This document shows positions 6,031 through 15,045 of a DNA stretch of 30,967 bases, in pieces. A model generated the notes under the pieces. It was not told where the DNA came from. It was given only the letters and a program-made list of their open reading frames with translations, and ran no database searches. Position 1 is the stretch's first letter. Every line of letters starts with the position of its first letter. Source of the DNA: a virus; the IMG/VR virus record IMGVR_UViG_3300025083_000143, positions 1-30,967 of that record; one strand, given 5' to 3'. Both the position numbers and the translations under genes were made by a program.

Positions 6031-6059
6031 ATTATACCATAAATTCAGACAATTGTACA
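6031..6059 (-). promoter_or_regulatory. Phage promoter for bS21-uvsX-41
   Basis: TGTACA (6059-6054), a 17-bp spacer ending ATGG, and TATAAT (6036-6031) lie on the minus strand. The TAA stop of the preceding methyltransferase-like gene is inside the -10 box, so the whole promoter is embedded in that gene's 3' end. Confidence 0.85.
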
Positions 6060-7219
6060 CTGTTTTTTTCATATTCGTAGGTTCTTTTTTTATTATCTTG
6101 AACCATAAACTTTGTATCAATCATATCTAAATCATTGTTTAAATATTTCTGTACCATTCTTGCTGGATGTTCTGCAGTGGTAACAGGTACGTTTTGACAT
6201 ATATGATTAAGTGACCTCTTAGGGTTTAATAATATAAAGTCAAAAGGTAATTTCATAAGTGATAGAGCTTCTCTTACTGTAAGATATCTATCCTCATCTG
6301 GATGAGTCAACATAGTTGGCATATGACCTACAAAAGCTCCTATTTTATCTTTAGGAATCTCTGTGGTTTTTCTCATGATATTACCACCAGCTTTTAGCTT
6401 ATGATATTGCCTATCACATTTCTTTGCCATACTTTCATAGCCATTTTCTCTCATCCATTGCGCTACTTCTTTATATGTTGTTCTTTCCTCTATGTAATCC
6501 ATAGGGTTTGTTGTCTTTTCTATTTTATCTTGAAACTCACTATGTGATATTCCACCTTCTAATACTTCAAGTACATACCGATAATACGGTTCTTCAGATG
6601 GTTTCTTTTCATTACAAAGTATTCGACTCATTGGGTCATTATCACATCTTTTTACTGCACGTATATCATCAGCAATCATTGTAGGTTGTTCTTGTATATA
6701 ATCAAATAATGGTATTCTATCATCTTTCCAAAAGAAATAAAATGTTCTATCTCTTACTTGACTTAAACCATGTAATAATGATTTTGTTTTAAATATACTA
6801 AACGTATATCCATTCTCCTCTCCAATTTTTCTCAGTCTCTTTACAACTGGCTCTCCCATTTTACTTGCTAATCTTGGTGCATTCTCTCCCCAGAAAACTT
6901 TAGGTTGTACTTTATTTAATATATATTCTGCTGATGTATACATCCATTCATTCATTGGATTGTTGCTTGAAGCAGATGGACTTAAAGAACTTAAACCTGC
7001 ACAAGGACAAACTGTATTAATAACATCTACACTATGAGGATGTTTCTTTCCTTCTGATAAATTTAAGTAAGGTACTTCATGTTTATAGTAATTATTTAAA
7101 TGAGTTTCATTTGCTTGAAATCCATCAAAGGTTAACATATAATCTGGCCTTTTGCCAAATACATTTTCCATTGCAATGGTTTCACCACCTATCAATGGTA
7201 CAATACTTGCATAATTCAT
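6032..7219 (-). CDS. C5-cytosine DNA methyltransferase-like protein
   Basis: The 395-aa protein has the ordered motifs of C5-cytosine methyltransferases: motif IV P72-C73 in VCPCAGLSSL (catalytic cysteine), motif VI ENA (112-114), motif VIII QVRDR (154-158), motif IX RYLTVREALSLMKLP, and a motif X-like QNVPVTTAEHPARMV near the C-terminus. Motif I is degenerate (VPLIGGETIAMEN rather than F-x-G-x-G), so cofactor binding may be altered. The start overlaps the glf stop by four bases (ATGA). It is the last gene of the gp42/sugar-nucleotide unit, which is odd because hydroxymethylcytosine already blocks C5. It may methylate unmodified cytosine, act on host DNA, or have diverged to another reaction. 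Confidence 0.8.
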   Translation of the reverse strand: MNYASIVPLIGGETIAMENVFGKRPDYMLTFDGFQANETHLNNYYKHEVPYLNLSEGKKHPHSVDVINTVCPCAGLSSLSPSASSNNPMNEWMYTSAEYILNKVQPKVFWGENAPRLASKMGEPVVKRLRKIGEENGYTFSIFKTKSLLHGLSQVRDRTFYFFWKDDRIPLFDYIQEQPTMIADDIRAVKRCDNDPMSRILCNEKKPSEEPYYRYVLEVLEGGISHSEFQDKIEKTTNPMDYIEERTTYKEVAQWMRENGYESMAKKCDRQYHKLKAGGNIMRKTTEIPKDKIGAFVGHMPTMLTHPDEDRYLTVREALSLMKLPFDFILLNPKRSLNHICQNVPVTTAEHPARMVQKYLNNDLDMIDTKFMVQDNKKRTYEYEKNSVQLSEFMV

Positions 7220-8223
7220 TTGTCTAAAAATCTCCTTGCAGTTGCCAAAGCAGAACTAATCGCCTGGTGCATATCAACATAAACATACATTCCACATCTT
7301 CCAATAAAAGTCATTTTATCTTCATTGACTTTATCTTTATATTTTTTGTATGTTTCTCTATTTGTTCCTTCTAAATCTTTTACTGGATAATATCTTTCAT
7401 AGTTATTATCTTTATAGTCACATGGTTCTTCGTAAGTAAGAACCGTTGTATAATCATTTGTACCATGAGCTGGAATATTCTTCCATTCAGTGACTCTTGT
7501 ATATGGACCATCGTGCGTAAAGTTTACTGTTCCTGTAGGTAATACTTTTGGTTGTTGAAGTGTAACATTATGAAACTTAATTGAACGATATGGAAGTTCA
7601 CCATAATCATAGTTAAAGTACATGTCAATTGGCATTGAATTAAATACATAATCGTATTCTTCTTCCATTGATTGATGAAACTCTACATTACATTCTACTT
7701 CAATATTTGAATGATTAAATATATTCTTAAATATTTCTGTATAACCATTCTTTGGCATCATTTGATATTCATCATTTGGAAAGTATAACTCATTGTCATC
7801 ATCACGAATAGGTACACGATTTATAATTGATGGGTCTAATTCATCAAGTGTTTTGCCCCACATCTTTTTTGTGTATGGTCGAAAGAAAATATCTAACACA
7901 TTCTCTTCACCTACAATCTTTTTTGTTTCTTTATTTACCGGTAATGTAACATAAGTTCCATCATTTAATTGTGCTTTGACTTTATGTTGATATGGAACCC
8001 ATTCAGTAAATTGTGATAGCCATTGCACTACCTTTTCGTTATTTGTGTGAAATAAATGTGGTCCATATTTGTGTATACGTATTCCATTTGAATCAGTATA
8101 ATCATAAGCGTTACCGCCTATATGGTCTCTCTTATCGATTACTTTTACTAAATGACCTGCTGCTGCACATTCTCTTGCTATCACAGCACCGGAGAATCCG
8201 GCTCCTACGATTAATATTCTCAT
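7216..8223 (-). CDS. glf: UDP-galactopyranose mutase (Glf)
   Basis: This flavoenzyme interconverts UDP-galactopyranose and UDP-galactofuranose. The N-terminus is an FAD-binding Rossmann motif (VGAGFSGAVIARECAAAGH, then IDKRDHIGGNAYD). It continues with the family hallmark GPHLFHT, the RPYTKKMWGK segment, the RVTEWKNIP stretch and the C-terminal GRCGMYVYVDMHQAI flavin segment. At 335 aa it is slightly shorter than bacterial Glf (~370). It overlaps both neighbours by ATGA junctions, so epimerase, glycosyltransferase and mutase are translationally linked. The context suggests supply of a furanose donor to the adjacent glycosyltransferase. Bacterial Glf can also act on UDP-arabinopyranose, so the sugar is not settled. 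Confidence 0.92.
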   Translation of the reverse strand: MRILIVGAGFSGAVIARECAAAGHLVKVIDKRDHIGGNAYDYTDSNGIRIHKYGPHLFHTNNEKVVQWLSQFTEWVPYQHKVKAQLNDGTYVTLPVNKETKKIVGEENVLDIFFRPYTKKMWGKTLDELDPSIINRVPIRDDDNELYFPNDEYQMMPKNGYTEIFKNIFNHSNIEVECNVEFHQSMEEEYDYVFNSMPIDMYFNYDYGELPYRSIKFHNVTLQQPKVLPTGTVNFTHDGPYTRVTEWKNIPAHGTNDYTTVLTYEEPCDYKDNNYERYYPVKDLEGTNRETYKKYKDKVNEDKMTFIGRCGMYVYVDMHQAISSALATARRFLDK

Positions 8224-9329
8224 AATATAACTTTCAATTCTTTTTGTTGTTTCTCTTTATCAAGTGGATGTCTTTCATATAGAGCATCTCTTTGTCTTTT
8301 TGCTAATATTGTAAGTTTATTTATATTACTTATTTCTAGGTCTCTTGCAGTAAGATTAGCAAGTTCTTCATCGCCATATAATAAAAACATTTCATCATAT
8401 TCACCTATTAGAATAGAGCCAGCATCTGCAACTTGATAAGGTCTTGCTCTCCACCAGCCTGAACCAGCATGATGATAACCTGGCATAAGACTTCCCCATT
8501 GTTCTGCATATACTTTACACATATCACCTTCAACTAATCTTCTTTGCTTTTCTTTTCTTGAGCCAAAGAATTCAATGTCCCAATCAGTTACATTTTGTTG
8601 CTTTAACCATCTTTTAGTTTTACCTTGTACTAATGAAGCAAAGTTAAAACACTTTAGTTTATCTTCTGGCACCACAGTATCTTCTTCAATTGTTGGCATC
8701 ATTTGTTGTTCCATGAATTCCATATCTTCAATTTCAACATCACCTCTATTACCTGGTGCTCTGTTTCTATGATATGGATTTGGGTCATAACCGACTAATA
8801 AATCTTTTGGATAATCGATAAGCTTTGTCATATCGCCGCCCATAAACACTGATAATAGCATTGGTGCTTGTTTTGAACCAATGAAGTTAACTGCATCTAA
8901 TAATGTTTGTGTATGTGGTTCAAGTAATTCATATGACATATCAGGGTCAGTCATTTTGTTTTGACCAATTGTAAATTCTTTTAAAAGAGATTCTTTATCT
9001 TTACATGATTGAATACCTTTAAAGATATCTTCTGTTTGCCAATCATCCATTGCAAGAACTAAATTTTCTTTTGGTGTAGAATGTATTGCCCATAGTCCAT
9101 TATAAAATGCAAGTTGTAATGCTTGTCTTGGTGAAGCAAGAAAACATATGACTTTATCGTAATCACTTAAGTCTTCTCCAATCTTGACTAATCTTTGTTC
9201 TACTTCATAACCCATATCTTCTAAACATCGTATTAACGAATAGTGAGATGGTACAACTTTTAATTGTTGTCTTAAATAAAAATCTTTTGTTGTTTGATTC
9301 TTATTCATTCCTGTAATTAATATCTTCAT
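8220..9329 (-). CDS. Putative GT-B glycosyltransferase
   Basis: The 369-aa protein begins with a Rossmann-like half (MKILITGMNKNQTTKDFYLR..., then VICFLASPRQALQLAFYNGLW). It ends like a GT-B nucleotide-sugar site: ARPYQVADAGSILIGEYDEMFLLYG, a helical region, and a final helix crossing back. A mid-protein PKDLLVGYDPNPYHRNRAPG segment and the acidic EIEDMEFMEQQMMPTIEED loop are distinctive. I recognise it as glycosyltransferase-like by fold pattern, not by a specific family. It lies between the epimerase and Glf with 4-base overlaps. Its likely role is transfer of the sugar made by those enzymes, with hydroxymethylcytosine in phage DNA as a plausible acceptor; lipopolysaccharide or a protein acceptor cannot be excluded. 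Confidence 0.6.
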   Translation of the reverse strand: MKILITGMNKNQTTKDFYLRQQLKVVPSHYSLIRCLEDMGYEVEQRLVKIGEDLSDYDKVICFLASPRQALQLAFYNGLWAIHSTPKENLVLAMDDWQTEDIFKGIQSCKDKESLLKEFTIGQNKMTDPDMSYELLEPHTQTLLDAVNFIGSKQAPMLLSVFMGGDMTKLIDYPKDLLVGYDPNPYHRNRAPGNRGDVEIEDMEFMEQQMMPTIEEDTVVPEDKLKCFNFASLVQGKTKRWLKQQNVTDWDIEFFGSRKEKQRRLVEGDMCKVYAEQWGSLMPGYHHAGSGWWRARPYQVADAGSILIGEYDEMFLLYGDEELANLTARDLEISNINKLTILAKRQRDALYERHPLDKEKQQKELKVIL

Positions 9330-10174
9330 AATTTAACTATATCCTCTAGTGTTTTTTGAGGGCTCATAAACTTACTCATAAATGGTACCTCACTTGATTC
9401 ATTATCTCCTTCTCTTCTTGGACCATATTCTACTTTAAATTTAGGACCATTGACTTCTAAGAAAGCATTTACATATTCAGAAACTGTATAGGACTTACCA
9501 GAACCTAGTGGTTCATAATCTGAATTAGCTCCTGGTTCATGAATTGCTTTTATAATCGCATCACATAAATCATCTACATGAACATAATCTCTTACACATG
9601 TTCCATCTTTTGTATTATAATCGTTACCATGAATTGTAAACGTTCCTGATTCACATGCATTCATTGTTGCTGCGTATAAACCTTCAGGATTTGTTGGTTG
9701 TCCTCCACCTACGTTGAAGAAACGAAAGATTGTATATTCATCACACATTTCTTTTACAATATCTTCAGCAGCAACTTTAGACCTGGCATACGGAGATGTT
9801 GGGTCAAATGCTGCACCGGTAGAAGCAAATATAAACTTAGCACCATGAAAAGCTTCAATGACTTTCTTTGTGCCATTTACATTTGTATCATAGTAGTCCC
9901 ACGGTCTTTTAACACTCTCTCCTACTTTTACTAATGCTCCTAAATGTACTACACAATCAAAGTTTATCCAATGCCAAGGTAGTCCACCATGATTTGGAGT
10001 ATTACGAATATTCCAATAAGTTTCAGAAGCTCTATGTTTTACTTCATTTATACCTGCAGGATGTCTATGGTCTTCATTCATATCAATACAAAGTAATTCA
10101 TGTTCTGTATCTTTTAATTTTTCTACTAGGCATTGACCTATATAACCATCACTTCCTGTTATTGCTATTTTCAT
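9326..10174 (-). CDS. NAD-dependent UDP-sugar 4-epimerase (GalE-like)
   Basis: This extended short-chain dehydrogenase has the NAD loop GSDGYIG (7-13), a D31 that would favour NAD over NADP, the LGALVKVGESVKRP segment, catalytic Y129-x-x-x-K133 (SPYARSK) with upstream S118/T119, and the GalE-type GTCVRDYVHVDDLCDAI stretch. At 282 aa it is shorter than E. coli GalE (338). It probably interconverts UDP-glucose and UDP-galactose, or UDP-xylose and UDP-arabinose, feeding the mutase two genes downstream. Its start lies 26 nt inside the cytidylyltransferase gene and its stop overlaps the glycosyltransferase by 4 nt. Specificity is inferred. Confidence 0.88.
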   Translation of the reverse strand: MKIAITGSDGYIGQCLVEKLKDTEHELLCIDMNEDHRHPAGINEVKHRASETYWNIRNTPNHGGLPWHWINFDCVVHLGALVKVGESVKRPWDYYDTNVNGTKKVIEAFHGAKFIFASTGAAFDPTSPYARSKVAAEDIVKEMCDEYTIFRFFNVGGGQPTNPEGLYAATMNACESGTFTIHGNDYNTKDGTCVRDYVHVDDLCDAIIKAIHEPGANSDYEPLGSGKSYTVSEYVNAFLEVNGPKFKVEYGPRREGDNESSEVPFMSKFMSPQKTLEDIVKL

Positions 10175-10595
10175 TTAATCTTTCCCTCAAACTTGTAGTA
10201 CTAAAACTGTGTTTCCTACTATTATATATGATTTTAATTTTCTGTTGTATACAAAGCTCTTTACCAGTAAAGTCTTTGCCTTTATAATCTTCACCTACTA
10301 CTCTTACACTAATTGGTAACGTAAGAAGTAAGTCAATAATATCTTCTTCAGATTGATACGTGACAATTTCATCTACGTATTTTAATCCTGCTAATTGTAT
10401 TTGTCTTTCAACTATTGATTGAATTGGTTTATTTTTATCTGGTCTATCGATGGTCGGGTCAGTTTGTAATCCTACAATTAAATAATCACAATGTCTTTTG
10501 GCTTCTTCTAACATTGTAACATGACCTGCATGTAATAAATCAAAACATGAAAATGTAATACCTATCTTGCCTTTTTCTTTATAATCTAATCTCAT
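10149..10595 (-). CDS. Cytidylyl/adenylyltransferase (TagD/HldE-C type)
   Basis: The 148-aa protein is a single nucleotidyltransferase domain. TFSCFDLLHAGHVTMLEEAK contains the H22-A-G-H25 nucleotide-binding motif, IVGLQTDPT follows, VVGEDYKGKDFTGKELC resembles the TagD linker, and HSFSTTSLRERL is the C-terminal STT-type motif. Such enzymes couple CTP or ATP to a sugar- or polyol-phosphate and release pyrophosphate. Which substrate is used is not visible. It opens the sugar-nucleotide part of the unit and overlaps the epimerase by 26 nt, so a role in activating a phosphate sugar for the same modification is the simplest reading. I see no good ribosome binding site; coupling to the preceding gene (ATGA) is likely. 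Confidence 0.85.
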   Translation of the reverse strand: MRLDYKEKGKIGITFSCFDLLHAGHVTMLEEAKRHCDYLIVGLQTDPTIDRPDKNKPIQSIVERQIQLAGLKYVDEIVTYQSEEDIIDLLLTLPISVRVVGEDYKGKDFTGKELCIQQKIKIIYNSRKHSFSTTSLRERLNENSNNRK

Positions 10596-10885
10596 ATTGA
10601 TTGAATTAAGTTTCGTATTAGAAACATTACTCCTACTCCATTTAATAATAATAAAGCTCTATCTTTCCATAAAGCTGCAACAACTGTCCAAAGTGTTACG
10701 CCAATAATTGAAAATATTAAATCATAAAATTGAAATCCATCTACTCCTCGTATTGACATTCCTGCTAATACAAACACAGATGCTATCCATTTAATATACC
10801 AATCAATCGTATATTTTGGTGTCGCACTCTTATATATACGTGTAGAATTTTGTATTTCTTTTGGGTCAAACTTCTGAGAACTCAT
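10592..10885 (-). CDS. Small membrane protein, DUF6552-like (97 aa)
   Basis: The ATG at 10885 is chosen over an earlier one at 10915 because GGAG is 6 nt ahead of it and it shortens the overlap with the deaminase gene. The product begins MSSQKFDPKEIQNSTRIYKS, followed by three hydrophobic helices: WYIKWIASVFVLAGMSI, FYDLIFSIIGVTLWTVVAALW, and ALLLLNGVGVMFLIRNLI. It resembles the small DUF6552 membrane proteins I remember from marine phages, which have no known function. Its place inside a nucleotide- and sugar-metabolism unit gives no clear clue to its job. Confidence 0.65.
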   Translation of the reverse strand: MSSQKFDPKEIQNSTRIYKSATPKYTIDWYIKWIASVFVLAGMSIRGVDGFQFYDLIFSIIGVTLWTVVAALWKDRALLLLNGVGVMFLIRNLIQSI

Positions 10886-11324
10886 ATTCCACTCCAGCTT
10901 CTTTAAATATTTCATTTGTTTTTCCTATTGCTTCTATCCATCTATCTGGAGTTCCTTCTGATATTGAAACAACTCTTGATACTCCAGCTTGTATAATGCC
11001 TAGTGCACAATCACCACAAACTGGTAAACCGTAAATGTATAAAGTAGAATCTCTTAGTGATATTCCATTTTCTGCAGCATTGTATATACAGTTCATTTCA
11101 GCATGCACAACATATTGATACTTTATTTCTCTATTGTTATATCTTTCTTCGCTATCTTCAATACCTTTAGGAAATCCATTATATCCTGTAGATAATATTT
11201 TTCTATTTCTTACTGCAATTGCACCTATCTTTCTACTTGGGTCTTTGCTCCATGTAGATATTTCAGATGCAATACTAAGAAATCTTTTATCCCACTTATT
11301 TAACAAGGTCAAAATGCCTCTCAT
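10866..11324 (-). CDS. Deoxycytidylate (dCMP) deaminase
   Basis: This zinc enzyme converts dCMP to dUMP, the precursor of dTMP, and so sets the dC/dT precursor balance. From the ATG at 11324 the product is 152 aa. It has WSKDPSRKIGAIAV, the zinc and catalytic H74-A-E76 (VVHAEMN) and P101-V-C103-G-D-C106. The frame is open to 11396, deep inside gene 42, so the start is uncertain: ATGs at 11330 and 11324 lack a clear Shine-Dalgarno, while a GAGAGG site precedes TTG codons at about 11310-11302. It follows dCMP hydroxymethylase, so both enzymes compete for dCMP. Confidence 0.88.
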   Translation of the reverse strand: MRGILTLLNKWDKRFLSIASEISTWSKDPSRKIGAIAVRNRKILSTGYNGFPKGIEDSEERYNNREIKYQYVVHAEMNCIYNAAENGISLRDSTLYIYGLPVCGDCALGIIQAGVSRVVSISEGTPDRWIEAIGKTNEIFKEAGVEYEFSEV

Positions 11325-11976
11325 ATACATGTAAGTTTTGTACTTGCCAATAGATATCACCTTCATCGAGTTTATATCCAACATAGTACAAGTCATTTCT
11401 TAGTTTGTTAAGAACATAATGCTGCCAAGCAAAATCATTCTTATAACCAAACACAACATCATTACTACGCATTTGAACTACACAATGTAGTTTATTATCA
11501 CGAATATAATATGTTACTGCATTTGTACAGATAAAATCATTTTTACCGTCTTCGTTAAACTCATGCCAAATACTTGGTCTTTGATAAATCATAGAAGCTC
11601 TACGTGAATCAGGGTTTACTTCAGATAATTCTTCAAGAACTCTTTTATATTGTTTAAAGTATTTCTTACCGAAAATAAGCTTACCATAATTAGAATTAAT
11701 TTCGCCATAATCATTAGCTGAATATAACCAAGCAACTGGAGCTTTTTTAGTACCATAACATTCTGCAAGTTTGTTAACATTAGTGGAACGAGATTCATAC
11801 CATTTTATTTCTGCATCAACATATGTTTGATTTACATCGCCGAATATTGATGGCTTATCAGCAAGAAAAGACGCACCTAATATTTCGATTGTTCTACAGC
11901 CAGTTTTATCTTTAGTAAACTGTTTGCTTTCAAGAGCATTAATAAATATCTCTGCGATATCTTTAGTCGTCTGCAT
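11296..11976 (-). CDS. 42: dCMP hydroxymethylase (T4 gp42)
   Basis: This thymidylate-synthase relative makes 5-hydroxymethyl-dCMP, so the phage probably carries hydroxymethylcytosine. It aligns with T4 gp42 along its length: GASFLADKPSIFG, GEINSNYG, NPDSRRASMIYQRPS, FICTNAVTYYIRD with the catalytic C150, and MRSNDVVFGYKNDFAWQ. D181 replaces the Asn that thymidylate synthases use to select dUMP, and the C150-D181 spacing equals that of C148-D179 in T4. Length is 226 aa (T4 246); the C-terminus is shorter and ends ERHFDLVK. It overlaps the preceding Nmad1-like gene by 14 nt. Confidence 0.94.
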   Translation of the reverse strand: MQTTKDIAEIFINALESKQFTKDKTGCRTIEILGASFLADKPSIFGDVNQTYVDAEIKWYESRSTNVNKLAECYGTKKAPVAWLYSANDYGEINSNYGKLIFGKKYFKQYKRVLEELSEVNPDSRRASMIYQRPSIWHEFNEDGKNDFICTNAVTYYIRDNKLHCVVQMRSNDVVFGYKNDFAWQHYVLNKLRNDLYYVGYKLDEGDIYWQVQNLHVYERHFDLVK

Positions 11977-12298
11977 TATTTACCTTCCTGTTGAACATAT
12001 CTCTTGTTGAATCTTGGCCTTCCATTTGACCACGCATATATGATACTGCAAACGATGCATAGTTAATCATATCTTTATAGGTATCTTCAAGAGATTCAAA
12101 GTTAGGTTCACCATGTGTACCAGCTTCGAGTAATGATTGGGCACGTAACATTTTACCGTTGATGATGTCATGTATACTATCGACACCTCTACGATAATGC
12201 ATTGCTTGAGTTACATTAGATTCTTGATTTTGATAATCGTTTGATTTTTTAGTTTGTAATTCTGCACATTCTTGCAGTACTCTTAAGCTTTCTTTCAT
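11963..12298 (-). CDS. Nmad1/DUF1599-like protein (111 aa)
   Basis: The all-helical 111-aa protein has the pattern of nucleotide-modification-associated domain 1: KSNDYQNQESN, a central IINGKMLRAQSLLE helix, and a final ESLEDTYKDMINYASFAVSYM helix with D/Y residues. This is a MazG-like four-helix arrangement. It is the first gene behind the promoter at 12327-12355, with GGAG 5 nt ahead of the ATG, and overlaps gp42 by 14 nt. Association with hydroxymethylcytosine synthesis agrees with the domain's name. An actual reaction is not established; a nucleotide pyrophosphohydrolase is one possibility. Confidence 0.65.
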   Translation of the reverse strand: MKESLRVLQECAELQTKKSNDYQNQESNVTQAMHYRRGVDSIHDIINGKMLRAQSLLEAGTHGEPNFESLEDTYKDMINYASFAVSYMRGQMEGQDSTRDMFNRKVNNADD

Positions 12299-12326: not shown

Positions 12327-12355
12327 ATTATACCACAGTTTTAAACTATTGTACA
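12327..12355 (-). promoter_or_regulatory. Phage promoter for the gp42/sugar-nucleotide unit
   Basis: TGTACA (12355-12350), a 17-bp spacer ending TGTGG, and TATAAT (12332-12327) lie on the minus strand, with the -35 inside the 3' end of the 200-aa gene. It would drive nine genes, from the Nmad1-like gene to the methyltransferase-like gene. Confidence 0.85.
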
Positions 12356-12948
12356 CTGTTTTTTTCATTTATTTCACTATGAAATATATGACATTCTTCA
12401 TCTCTTGATGCTGTCATGTGGTCATAATAATAAGGTTTGTAGTTGTTAAATTTAGACTGTCTAATATATTTTTCAAAGGTGTGTGGATTTATAACTAATC
12501 TAGGATAAACTTTACTTCCATCTGCTTTTATATCAGGTATATGTGTAGCTACCACAATTGAATCCGGATAACCTCTTGTAATATTCTTTTTGATTTTCAT
12601 ATACATTCCAGTCGTAAAAGACCACCATTTAGATTCTAAGCTCATCCACTTAATTTCTATATGATGTTCTAATAACTTTTCATATATATCCCAAGCATAC
12701 GTAGATGGGTCTCTAAAATCAAACTCCTGTTCATTCAAATAAGAAGATTCAATCATATTTGAAATACCTATTTCGCATGCAACTGAATCCCATGTATTAC
12801 GATATATAACCTCATCAGGTCTTTTATCATTCATTTTTTTCTTATTAGCAATAATACCTTTTGCTTGCCAATCAGTTCTTTCTTTTATAAATTCATTTTT
12901 TGCAAAAGAAACTTCACTTAACCATTCTTTATATTGTTCTTCTATCAT
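12346..12948 (-). CDS. Hypothetical protein, possible PD-(D/E)XK nuclease fold (200 aa)
   Basis: The family is not firmly recognised. E59 (VACEIGISN), D87 (YAWDIYE) and E98-I-K100 (HHIEIKWMS) are spaced and placed in helix-strand-strand contexts as in PD-(D/E)XK nucleases. Aromatic residues follow (ESKWWSFTTGMY). The start overlaps the GroES-like gene's stop by one base. The last codons contain the -35 region of the next promoter. It lies last in the Sm-MazG-primase-SleB-GroES unit. A nuclease acting on host DNA or at replication junctions would fit, but this is inference from three residues and the predicted fold. Confidence 0.45.
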   Translation of the reverse strand: MIEEQYKEWLSEVSFAKNEFIKERTDWQAKGIIANKKKMNDKRPDEVIYRNTWDSVACEIGISNMIESSYLNEQEFDFRDPSTYAWDIYEKLLEHHIEIKWMSLESKWWSFTTGMYMKIKKNITRGYPDSIVVATHIPDIKADGSKVYPRLVINPHTFEKYIRQSKFNNYKPYYYDHMTASRDEECHIFHSEINEKNSVQ

Positions 12949-13743: not shown

Positions 13744-14657
13744 ATATTATTTTTAAACACAAACTCAATAGCTCGTGCTGCCTCCTTTTCTAAATCTCTT
13801 TTACCATACCAACCACCTGTATCAATATCTAAATCTCTACAGATATATTCGATTTCTTTTGATGTAATTGGATAACCTCTTGACATTGCATTGCCAGCTG
13901 TTGTTAACATGATTTGATACATTTTAGAATACCAACCTGTGCCGGTGATTCCTTTGTATTCGTCTATTTGTTTTTTATTTACAAAAGGACAATCGCGATA
14001 AGATGTCCATGTAAAATTAGTATTGTTCAATTCATTTCTTTTTCTTTCAAGCAAAGCTTTTTGTATTGCAGGTGGAAATCTATCGAACATTGTTTGATTA
14101 GGTTTGACATAAGGATGTTTATTCATGAGTGTTTCAGGATTCATTATTTCACCAGCATGTGAGAATATAAAATTAAAACTATTCTTATATTTAGCTGGTA
14201 CATAATACATACGACTTAAATCTTTTGTTTGAGCATCAGCAATATCGCCAATCTCTTTATTTAATGCATACCAAAAATGTTTGATATCATCTTTCATTAC
14301 AGCTTGTGTTAGTGGAAACACTAATCTAAATTTGGGATTCTCGACTGTTGATGATGCAGTTGAATAACAGACATATCGATATTGAGAGTATTTCTCTTCG
14401 ATGTCATGCATCTTACCGTCAAAGTCATCTATATCAAGAATCCCGAAGCTGCCCCATGCTGTGACGTTGTCATTAGCCCTTGTTGTATCGGGGATGTATA
14501 CTGCAGGACTGATGAGAGGAGCATCTTTTTTTGTTGGATATTTGGTTGATTCAGATAGCTTATATAGAATAGCCTCGAACTCGTCGAAGCTTGTATAATT
14601 CATACGCTTATCTGTTTTGTTATCGTATATGCTATCAAATATTGTTAAACTTACCAT
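13740..14657 (-). CDS. Archaeo-eukaryotic primase (AEP)-like protein (305 aa)
   Basis: The N-terminal ~180 residues carry AEP-type motifs: I-D75-x-D77 in GILDIDDFDG, S99-T-A-S-S with ENPKFRLVFPL (R111), and D146-L-S-R149-MYYVP. This is the layout seen in primase-polymerase and VirE-N-like proteins. The C-terminal part (after ~185) includes WTSYRDCPFVNKK and a helical ITSKEIEYICRDLDIDTGGWYGKRDLEKEAARA, possibly a PriCT-like or DNA-binding domain. No helicase domain is attached. The T4-type primase gp61 is not in this window, so this could be an additional or replacement priming enzyme. AGGA precedes the ATG. It overlaps the MazG gene by 23 nt. Confidence 0.62.
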   Translation of the reverse strand: MVSLTIFDSIYDNKTDKRMNYTSFDEFEAILYKLSESTKYPTKKDAPLISPAVYIPDTTRANDNVTAWGSFGILDIDDFDGKMHDIEEKYSQYRYVCYSTASSTVENPKFRLVFPLTQAVMKDDIKHFWYALNKEIGDIADAQTKDLSRMYYVPAKYKNSFNFIFSHAGEIMNPETLMNKHPYVKPNQTMFDRFPPAIQKALLERKRNELNNTNFTWTSYRDCPFVNKKQIDEYKGITGTGWYSKMYQIMLTTAGNAMSRGYPITSKEIEYICRDLDIDTGGWYGKRDLEKEAARAIEFVFKNNI

Positions 14658-15045
14658 GATTTCCTTCGTGTGAAGGAGCCTCCCAACCTTCTGGTTTTAT
14701 TAAGTCCGGCAATCCTAGTGGATTTGGTCTTGATTCTTTTACACCTACTTCTTTTGATAGGTTTGCTTTAAGTACTTCATCCCACGCCTTGTATGAGTCA
14801 ATACCAAATGCATCAAGAGTACCAATAGCAACAACACATATATCAATAAGACCATCGACAATTTCTTCTGGGTCATTATGTGTAAGAGCTGCTTCTGTTT
14901 CCATTAGTTCTTCTCTTATAAACTTAACTCTAAATTCAAGATACTTACGTAGTTTTTCAGCATCTTCTTTATTGTTATGCATCCATGACTTTACGCCATA
15001 TTTGTATTGCATATCGGATATATCTTTTACCCAGTCTTTGCTCAT
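14635..15045 (-). CDS. MazG-like nucleotide pyrophosphohydrolase
   Basis: The 136-aa protein has the all-alpha NTP pyrophosphohydrolase signature E45-E46-x-x-E49 (IREELMETEAAL), followed after a short loop by E61-x-x-D64 and D68 (PEEIVDGLIDICVVAIG). These acidic residues hold Mg2+ and hydrolyse NTPs or dNTPs to monophosphates. The C-terminal NLSKEVGVKESRPNPLGLPDLIKPEGW is typical of phage versions. Marine phage MazG has been linked to ppGpp or dNTP control, and the actual substrate is open here. AGGA precedes the ATG. It is the second gene after the promoter at 15340-15368 and overlaps the Sm-like gene by 4 nt. Confidence 0.88.
   Translation of the reverse strand: MSKDWVKDISDMQYKYGVKSWMHNNKEDAEKLRKYLEFRVKFIREELMETEAALTHNDPEEIVDGLIDICVVAIGTLDAFGIDSYKAWDEVLKANLSKEVGVKESRPNPLGLPDLIKPEGWEAPSHEGNHGKFNNI

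Follow-up and report, generated by a model that had tools for sequence, protein, structure and literature searches.

The 30,967-base virus record IMGVR_UViG_3300025083_000143, analysed here over its whole length (the window), carries a nine-gene minus-strand unit (12298-6032) that probably makes DNA with glycosylated hydroxymethylcytosine, the sugar most likely being galactofuranose. The window has a replication module of the T4 kind, comprising DNA polymerase, clamp, clamp loaders, RegA, gp46/47, a late sigma factor, UvsX and gp41, and polB and uvsX stand on either side of the unit. In order, its genes encode Nmad1, dCMP hydroxymethylase, dCMP deaminase, a DUF6552 protein, a nucleotidyltransferase, a GalE-type epimerase, a glycosyltransferase, UDP-galactopyranose mutase and a C5-cytosine DNA methyltransferase. 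Since other contigs keep this order, the arrangement is not one of chance. An earlier note on this DNA had named seven of these genes, and open reading frame (ORF) coordinates with Pfam and phrog matches place every one of them where it had put them, on the minus strand; its list left out the DUF6552 and methyltransferase genes, which fall inside its coordinates. Four genes carry the argument:

11296-11976, minus strand: dCMP hydroxymethylase of the T4 gp42 type (PF00303, 1.9e-14)
9326-10174, minus strand: short GalE-type nucleotide-sugar 4-epimerase, 282 aa (PF01370, 2.5e-32; TIGR01179, 2.8e-45)
8220-9329, minus strand: putative DNA glycosyltransferase with a T4 BGT-like fold, 369 aa (phrog_14998, 1e-31; AlphaFold2 model)
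7216-8223, minus strand: UDP-galactopyranose mutase, 335 aa (PF03275, 2.9e-53, plus NAD_binding_8)

A predicted hydroxymethylase of the T4 type

Residues C150 and D181 of the window hydroxymethylase, described as intact in the earlier note, do align with C148 and D179 of T4 gp42, a cysteine that we take to be catalytic and an aspartate that presumably marks the dCMP-specific position. The cysteine is kept in all 23 aligned sequences of the thymidylate synthase (TS) family, and in the same alignment the dCMP column holds Asp in 12 cassette sequences and Asn in two true thymidylate synthases. Identity of the window enzyme is 46-52% to five enzymes of the gp42 type (T4, JD18, myPSH1140, Aeromonas 25 and FBB1) and only 26-28% to base enzymes of the RB69/Rgz1 type; an RB69-type hydroxycytosine base was considered and rejected on the identities to T4 gp42 (51%) and RB69 ORF048c (28%). 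Because the enzyme groups with the gp42 type and carries the dCMP-type Asp, hydroxymethyl-dC is the likely base and 5-hydroxymethyl-dCMP the predicted product, so that the hydroxymethylcytosine of the earlier note is supported by a sequence of T4 rather than RB69 type. According to two papers, RB69 and its kin were formerly credited with arabinosyl-hydroxymethylcytosine (PMC6024577), and their base is now given as 5-hydroxycytosine, the 5-hydroxy-dCMP synthase of Mosigvirus being homologous to the hydroxymethyl enzyme (PMC13390438). Elsewhere, the protein named ThyA in cyanophage S-TIM61 (L078 1769-2605), judged by its motif, has Asp at the position that is Asn in thymidylate synthases; three genes separate it from a relative of the window's C5-methylase.

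A transferase model closest to T4 BGT

Sequence searches gave little for the transferase: a Pfam search with 14 members of its family returned nothing useful (best E-value 0.037, one member per family), the same was true of a PDB sequence search (best E-value 0.37), and phmmer with T4 BGT retrieved no member of the family. Profile-profile comparison with T4 BGT was weak, covering 59 columns at a probability of 87%, with 69% for a local alignment in a separate run. The AlphaFold2 model (mean pLDDT 82.8, pTM 0.82) resembles a two-domain GT-B fold; Foldseek against the PDB placed T4 BGT first (3.3e-05) and T4 AGT second (1.6e-04), and VIA-align likewise put T4 BGT (1nzd) first, at Z 17.7 (rmsd 3.9, 297 residues aligned, 15% identity); glycogen synthase scored 16.4 and AGT 15.2. 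The GT-B-like glycosyltransferase foreseen in the earlier note thus finds its closest structural match in T4 BGT. In an alignment of the 14 transferases, which are as little as 38% identical to the window protein, 62 columns are listed as invariant. A conserved D95/D96 follows a strand, and hhalign leaves it unpaired with Asp100, which we assume to be the catalytic residue of T4 BGT; that program gave no trustworthy pairing of transferase residues with the BGT catalytic residues. By modelled fold and by gene company, assignment of the protein to the DNA-glycosyltransferase kind is supported.

Gene company of the transferase in 37 loci

Gene company was surveyed in 37 transferase loci, the window and 36 contigs, obtained from scans with the transferase and with the mutase; L008 is a near duplicate of the window, and L009-L012 are near copies of one another. 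The mutase adjoins the transferase in 34 of these loci, and the other three are L060 and L080, which end inside the transferase, and L059, where a methyltransferase gene follows directly. A T4-type hydroxymethylase was found in 21 loci and a TET/JBP oxygenase in nine (PF12851, 1.1e-23 in L045), never both; of the seven loci with neither base enzyme, six break off right before the transferase, on its upstream side, and L044 does not. The same exclusion holds among 15 whole records, several of which are themselves fragments: five have TET, nine a TS-family gene and none both, while 14 have the mutase. In a tree built from 27 transferases, those labelled TET form one clade (support 98/100), branches being long and the deep order unsure, so the two base enzymes were exchanged few times and their mutual exclusion rests on few independent events. 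As a separate observation, L003 (phage C48C1), L045, L052-L058 and L060 have a TET/JBP oxygenase, and no hydroxymethylase, next to the transferase; epimerase and mutase are in most cases present as well.

The epimerase is present in 29 of the 37 loci. A scan of 10 records of relatives for the epimerase gave one match, a weak one in C48C1, and none in phage 25, FBB1 or DSL-LC01, where the host GalE could stand in. A scan of genome contigs gave two relatives, both on contigs of metagenome-assembled genomes (MAGs): one from Bacteroidetes with the same kind of unit, and one from Omnitrophota.

Predicted enzymes for a furanose donor

The mutase aligns over nearly its full length with solved mutases (PDB 3hdq, 7.8e-78; 1wam) and keeps Trp, Arg, Tyr and Asn residues that we take to belong to the active site. 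For the epimerase, which has the SDR fold with the Y and K of S/T-Y-K aligned with GalE, the best PDB match is GalE 5gy7 (9e-32), and nearly all of the top 30 matches are named UDP-glucose/galactose 4-epimerase. Judged by these similarities, the unit would encode the enzymes for a route from host UDP-glucose through UDP-galactopyranose to UDP-galactofuranose. No supply enzyme for UDP-xylose or UDP-glucuronate was found among ten window proteins scanned with Pfam, and the arabinose-5-phosphate isomerase of RB69 had no match in the window, which is a genome fragment. Since epimerase and mutase suffice for UDP-galactofuranose and no pentose supply genes were seen in the unit, galactofuranose is the favoured sugar, with arabinofuranose or an N-acetyl sugar as alternatives. 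The earlier proposal of a furanosyl donor placed on hydroxymethylcytosine therefore stands for the type of base, the kind of transferase and the enzymes of the UDP-galactofuranose route; the sugar itself we infer.

A candidate pathway and its alternatives

From the enzyme families, the hydroxymethylase type, the transferase fold, conservation and linkage, which sequence and model support, we infer reactions, a sugar, an acceptor and roles for DenB and MazG as follows. The hydroxymethylase would convert dCMP to 5-hydroxymethyl-dCMP, and the polymerase would incorporate the hydroxymethyl form instead of dC. The role of the T4 dCTPase may fall to a MazG-like enzyme, and DNA left unmodified would be cleaved by a DenB-like nuclease. 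The epimerase would turn host UDP-glucose into UDP-galactopyranose, the mutase would turn this into UDP-galactofuranose, and the T4-BGT-like transferase would place galactofuranose onto the hydroxymethyl group of DNA.

A number of observations weigh against this scheme. The global profile alignment of the transferase to BGT reached a probability of 21%, the Foldseek TM-scores of the model are 0.53 to BGT and 0.31 to AGT, and other GT-B enzymes reach Z 13.7-16.4 against it; because the lead of BGT over them is small, fold alone leaves donor and acceptor undecided. Both sugar enzymes score below their NCBIfam cut-offs, the mutase at 288.2 against 303.75 bits (TIGR00031) and the short epimerase at 154.6 against 262.3 bits (TIGR01179). 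L059 (6970-10302) holds transferase, hydroxymethylase and C5-methylase with no adjoining mutase, and its transferase may use another donor. The nucleotidyltransferase, the DUF6552 protein and Nmad1 have no step in the scheme, and T4 gp1 kinase and gp56 dCTPase were unmatched in 8 records of relatives, a search that had no positive control. By a hand count, the epimerase may also be without the tyrosine that holds GalE to unacetylated hexoses, which would make an N-acetyl sugar possible.

The last point bears on the alternative that the same DNA-modifying unit transfers another sugar, be it arabinofuranose from UDP-arabinose (+132), an N-acetylhexosamine (GalNAc-furanose, +203), or a sugar extended or capped through a group activated by the nucleotidyltransferase. 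Mutases accept UDP-arabinopyranose as well, an RB69-like arabinosylation region contains a distant relative within the transferase family, and the nucleotidyltransferase accompanies both base routes, being present in 17 of the 37 loci; it is missing from the available sequence of the other 20, and the pentose supply enzymes and the isomerase looked for above were not found. We regard this alternative as unlikely.

The sugar genes might instead decorate the host surface or the virion (lipopolysaccharide or tail fibre) and lie beside the hydroxymethylase by linkage only. The mutase scan gave 27 loci, 22 with the transferase and five without (L029, cut off at the mutase, L039, L040, L042 and L046), and in L039, L042 and L046 mutases 59-68% identical to the window's have other glycosyltransferases as neighbours, in what look like tail-fibre or glycan islands; phage mutases therefore serve other ends too, and published readings of them invoke the cell wall (PMC6630229, PMC10611076). 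Surface decoration is nonetheless very improbable here, given that the transferase model is closest to T4 BGT, that 30 of the 37 loci pair the transferase with a base-modifying enzyme, which belongs to either of two unrelated families, that the unit is placed between polB and uvsX, and that a family member is found inside an RB69-like region.

The last gene of the unit raises a further objection to the galactofuranose scheme:

6032-7219, minus strand: C5-cytosine DNA methyltransferase (PF00145, 3e-17; 63.5 bits against a cut-off of 22)

It falls under the NCBIfam TIGR00675 cut-off (37.7 against 100.65 bits), and its motifs IV, VI and VIII (PC, ENA, QxRxR) are invariant in 14 distinct sequences, the window's included. 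The methyltransferase lies downstream in 18 of the 21 hydroxymethylase loci (the window, L008-L017, L019, L033-L035, L041, L043 and L059); the other three are cut off there, L079 retaining the first 23 residues. No C5-methyltransferase was found in any of the nine TET-type loci, whereas a TET pathway that worked on 5-methylcytosine would call for the opposite distribution. Such an enzyme makes little sense if all cytosine is already substituted at C5, and residual cytosine, host DNA and hydroxymethylcytosine itself are guesses at its target. Its recurrence downstream and its intact motifs fit a unit that is used in part, with hydroxymethyl-dC left bare or little glycosylated and the methyltransferase protecting the remaining cytosines. 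Both the transferase and the mutase have open, conserved reading frames, which favours their use, and we rate partial use as very improbable. The name 'Nmad1' was considered for the methyltransferase gene and rejected, Nmad1 being the gene at 11963-12298 (PF07659). A relative of this methylase also occurs in the unannotated record of Pseudoalteromonas phage XG4 (L077 100-6580), together with a gp42-type gene (50% to T4 gp42), a gene that matches RB69 ORF051c at 36%, a long gene resembling nucleotidyltransferases and further genes, perhaps another sugar-modified DNA system.

Named relatives and the range of the family

Isolated phages carry the same pair of genes. In Aeromonas phage 25 and its kin and in Erwinia phage FBB1, mutase and transferase stand side by side with a gp42-type enzyme elsewhere, and phiAS4 is another isolated phage with the pair. 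In actinophage DSL-LC01 the transferase adjoins the mutase and a C5-methylase lies nearby; this phage, phage 25 and FBB1 each have a TS homologue with the dCMP-type Asp. In Gordonia phage GMA2 (L063 7368-12992) a transferase relative has a C5-methylase and another glycosyltransferase in its vicinity, and a TS homologue carrying the dCMP-type Asp is encoded elsewhere; the genome gave no mutase match. In 44RR2.8t a sodium:solute symporter gene occupies the site of phage 25's mutase and transferase.

More distant relatives (22-23% identity) occur in the Gualtarvirus phages Rgz1 and PSTRCR_127 (sites in L005 9001-10068 and L082 7001-8068), between homologues of the RB69 arabinose-5-phosphate isomerase and of ORF053c, in a region with homologues of RB69 ORF048c (81%), 050c, 051c, 052c, 053c and 055c, that is, the arabinosylation region. 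As its members sit in hydroxymethylase, TET/JBP and RB69-like arabinosylation loci, the family seems to be associated with three types of base hydroxylation in DNA. In phage C48C1, whose genome is complete, TET occurs with transferase and mutase; no TS-family or C5-methylase match was found there, so the oxidised base could be thymine. These observations prompt a tentative proposal, which we think possible though doubtful, that phrog_14998 is a general family of DNA furanosyltransferases with a BGT-like fold and three acceptors, namely hydroxymethylcytosine, a TET/JBP-made hydroxymethylpyrimidine and, in Gualtarvirus, hydroxycytosine, the donor sugar being galactofuranose beside a mutase and arabinofuranose with the arabinose cluster. 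Were it true, the TET/JBP base would perhaps be hydroxymethyluracil, considered because the TET loci and the complete C48C1 genome are without a C5-methylase match, and its product would be the furanose counterpart of base J.

Comparison with known systems

Glycosylated hydroxymethylcytosine is already known in T4-like phages. Akin to the window, the T4 system has a hydroxymethylase of this type (51% identity), the BGT fold and a DenB-like nuclease, and gene 42 and b-gt lie between polB and uvsX, a place similar to that of the window unit. It differs in that the window transferase is merely 15% identical to BGT in the structural alignment, and in that the unit adds an epimerase, UDP-galactopyranose mutase and a C5-methyltransferase; the first two suggest that the donor is probably a furanose rather than the host UDP-glucose used by T4. 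In the RB69/NP arabinosyl-hydroxycytosine systems, too, phage sugar-donor genes adjoin a TS-like base enzyme, and Gualtarvirus versions of that pathway carry a transferase of the window's family, but the window has another type of base enzyme (28% to ORF048c) and a mutase in place of any matched arabinose-5-phosphate isomerase. Phage DNA glycosylation of the TET/JBP type shares the transferase family, TET/JBP replacing the hydroxymethylase in nine of the 37 loci, whereas no Tet_JBP match was found among the ten scanned window proteins. The window mutase is homologous to bacterial Glf over nearly its whole length (3hdq), yet is a protein of 335 aa below the NCBIfam cut-off whose neighbour is a BGT-like transferase gene.

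We know of no galactofuranose previously described in DNA. Among the titles, opening lines of abstracts and paper passages covered from the open-access literature, no account of galactofuranose or galactose on phage cytosines was found, a scope outside which lies 2025 work on arabinosyl and glycosylated 5-hydroxycytosine. If correct, the scheme proposed here would describe the first galactofuranose in DNA and a further sugar for hydroxymethylcytosine DNA, and the transferase could serve as a tool to label hydroxymethylcytosine. A 2010 review states that Aeromonas phages 44RR, 31 and 25 have gene 42 but no glucosyltransferase genes, and leaves open other modifications in phages like RB69 and JS98 (PMC2993671); a galactofuranosyl modification would be the likely answer for phage 25. 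Isolated relatives (Aeromonas phage 25, phiAS4 and Erwinia FBB1) make the sugar directly testable. A furanosyl DNA coat would confront host defences in a new form, among them CRISPR, type IV restriction and DNA glycosylases, of which Brig1 is one (PMC13216743).

Layout of the unit and its neighbours

Six of the eight gene junctions within the unit overlap by 14, 4, 26, 4, 4 and 4 nt; the description of nearly all genes as linked by overlaps of 4-26 nt holds for these and fails for the remaining two, which overlap by 101 and 50 nt when longest-ORF starts are used. Two promoter-like motifs flank the unit:

12327-12355, minus strand: promoter-like motif TGTACA-N17-TATAAT, with TGG preceding TATAAT, upstream of Nmad1
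6031-6059, minus strand: next copy on this strand, at the end of the methyltransferase gene

No further TGTACA/TATAAT copy lies on the minus strand between these two. In the window, TGTACA-N15..19-TATAAT occurs nine times against 0.08 expected, a count reached in none of 100 shuffles, and a general sigma-70 scan did not exceed chance (40 found, 42.2 expected). The nine sites of this repeated TGTACA-N17-TATAAT motif are spread over 2682-29723, most with TGG ahead of TATAAT. A single transcript for the whole unit would fit the motif positions, and the one promoter claimed earlier is plausible.

The remaining genes of the unit and two neighbours are as follows:

11963-12298, minus strand: Nmad1 / DUF1599 protein, 111 aa (PF07659, 8.8e-06; phrog_1485, 2.4e-14)
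10866-11396, minus strand: dCMP deaminase (PF00383, 2.8e-18; phrog_174, 3.5e-44)
10592-10915, minus strand: DUF6552 protein (PF20189, 2.2e-16)
10149-10595, minus strand: nucleotidyltransferase of the HldE-C / glycerol-3-phosphate cytidylyltransferase kind (PF01467, 2.4e-14)
12346-12948, minus strand: DenB-like endonuclease IV relative, just upstream of the unit (phrog_1360, 1e-11)
14635-15045, minus strand: MazG-like nucleotide pyrophosphohydrolase (phrog_671, 8.8e-23)

T4 DenB cuts DNA with unmodified cytosine, as stated in the 2010 review (PMC2993671). A MazG-like gene is present in 18 of the 37 transferase loci. The nucleotidyltransferase matches TIGR02199 (6.7e-26, under its cut-off) and PDB entries 3elb and 1coz. 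The DUF6552 protein shows a weak similarity to MtN3_slv, the MtN3 sugar transporter family (E-value 0.012, under the cut-off), and a relative of it is found in C48C1, about 0.8 kb past the mutase gene.

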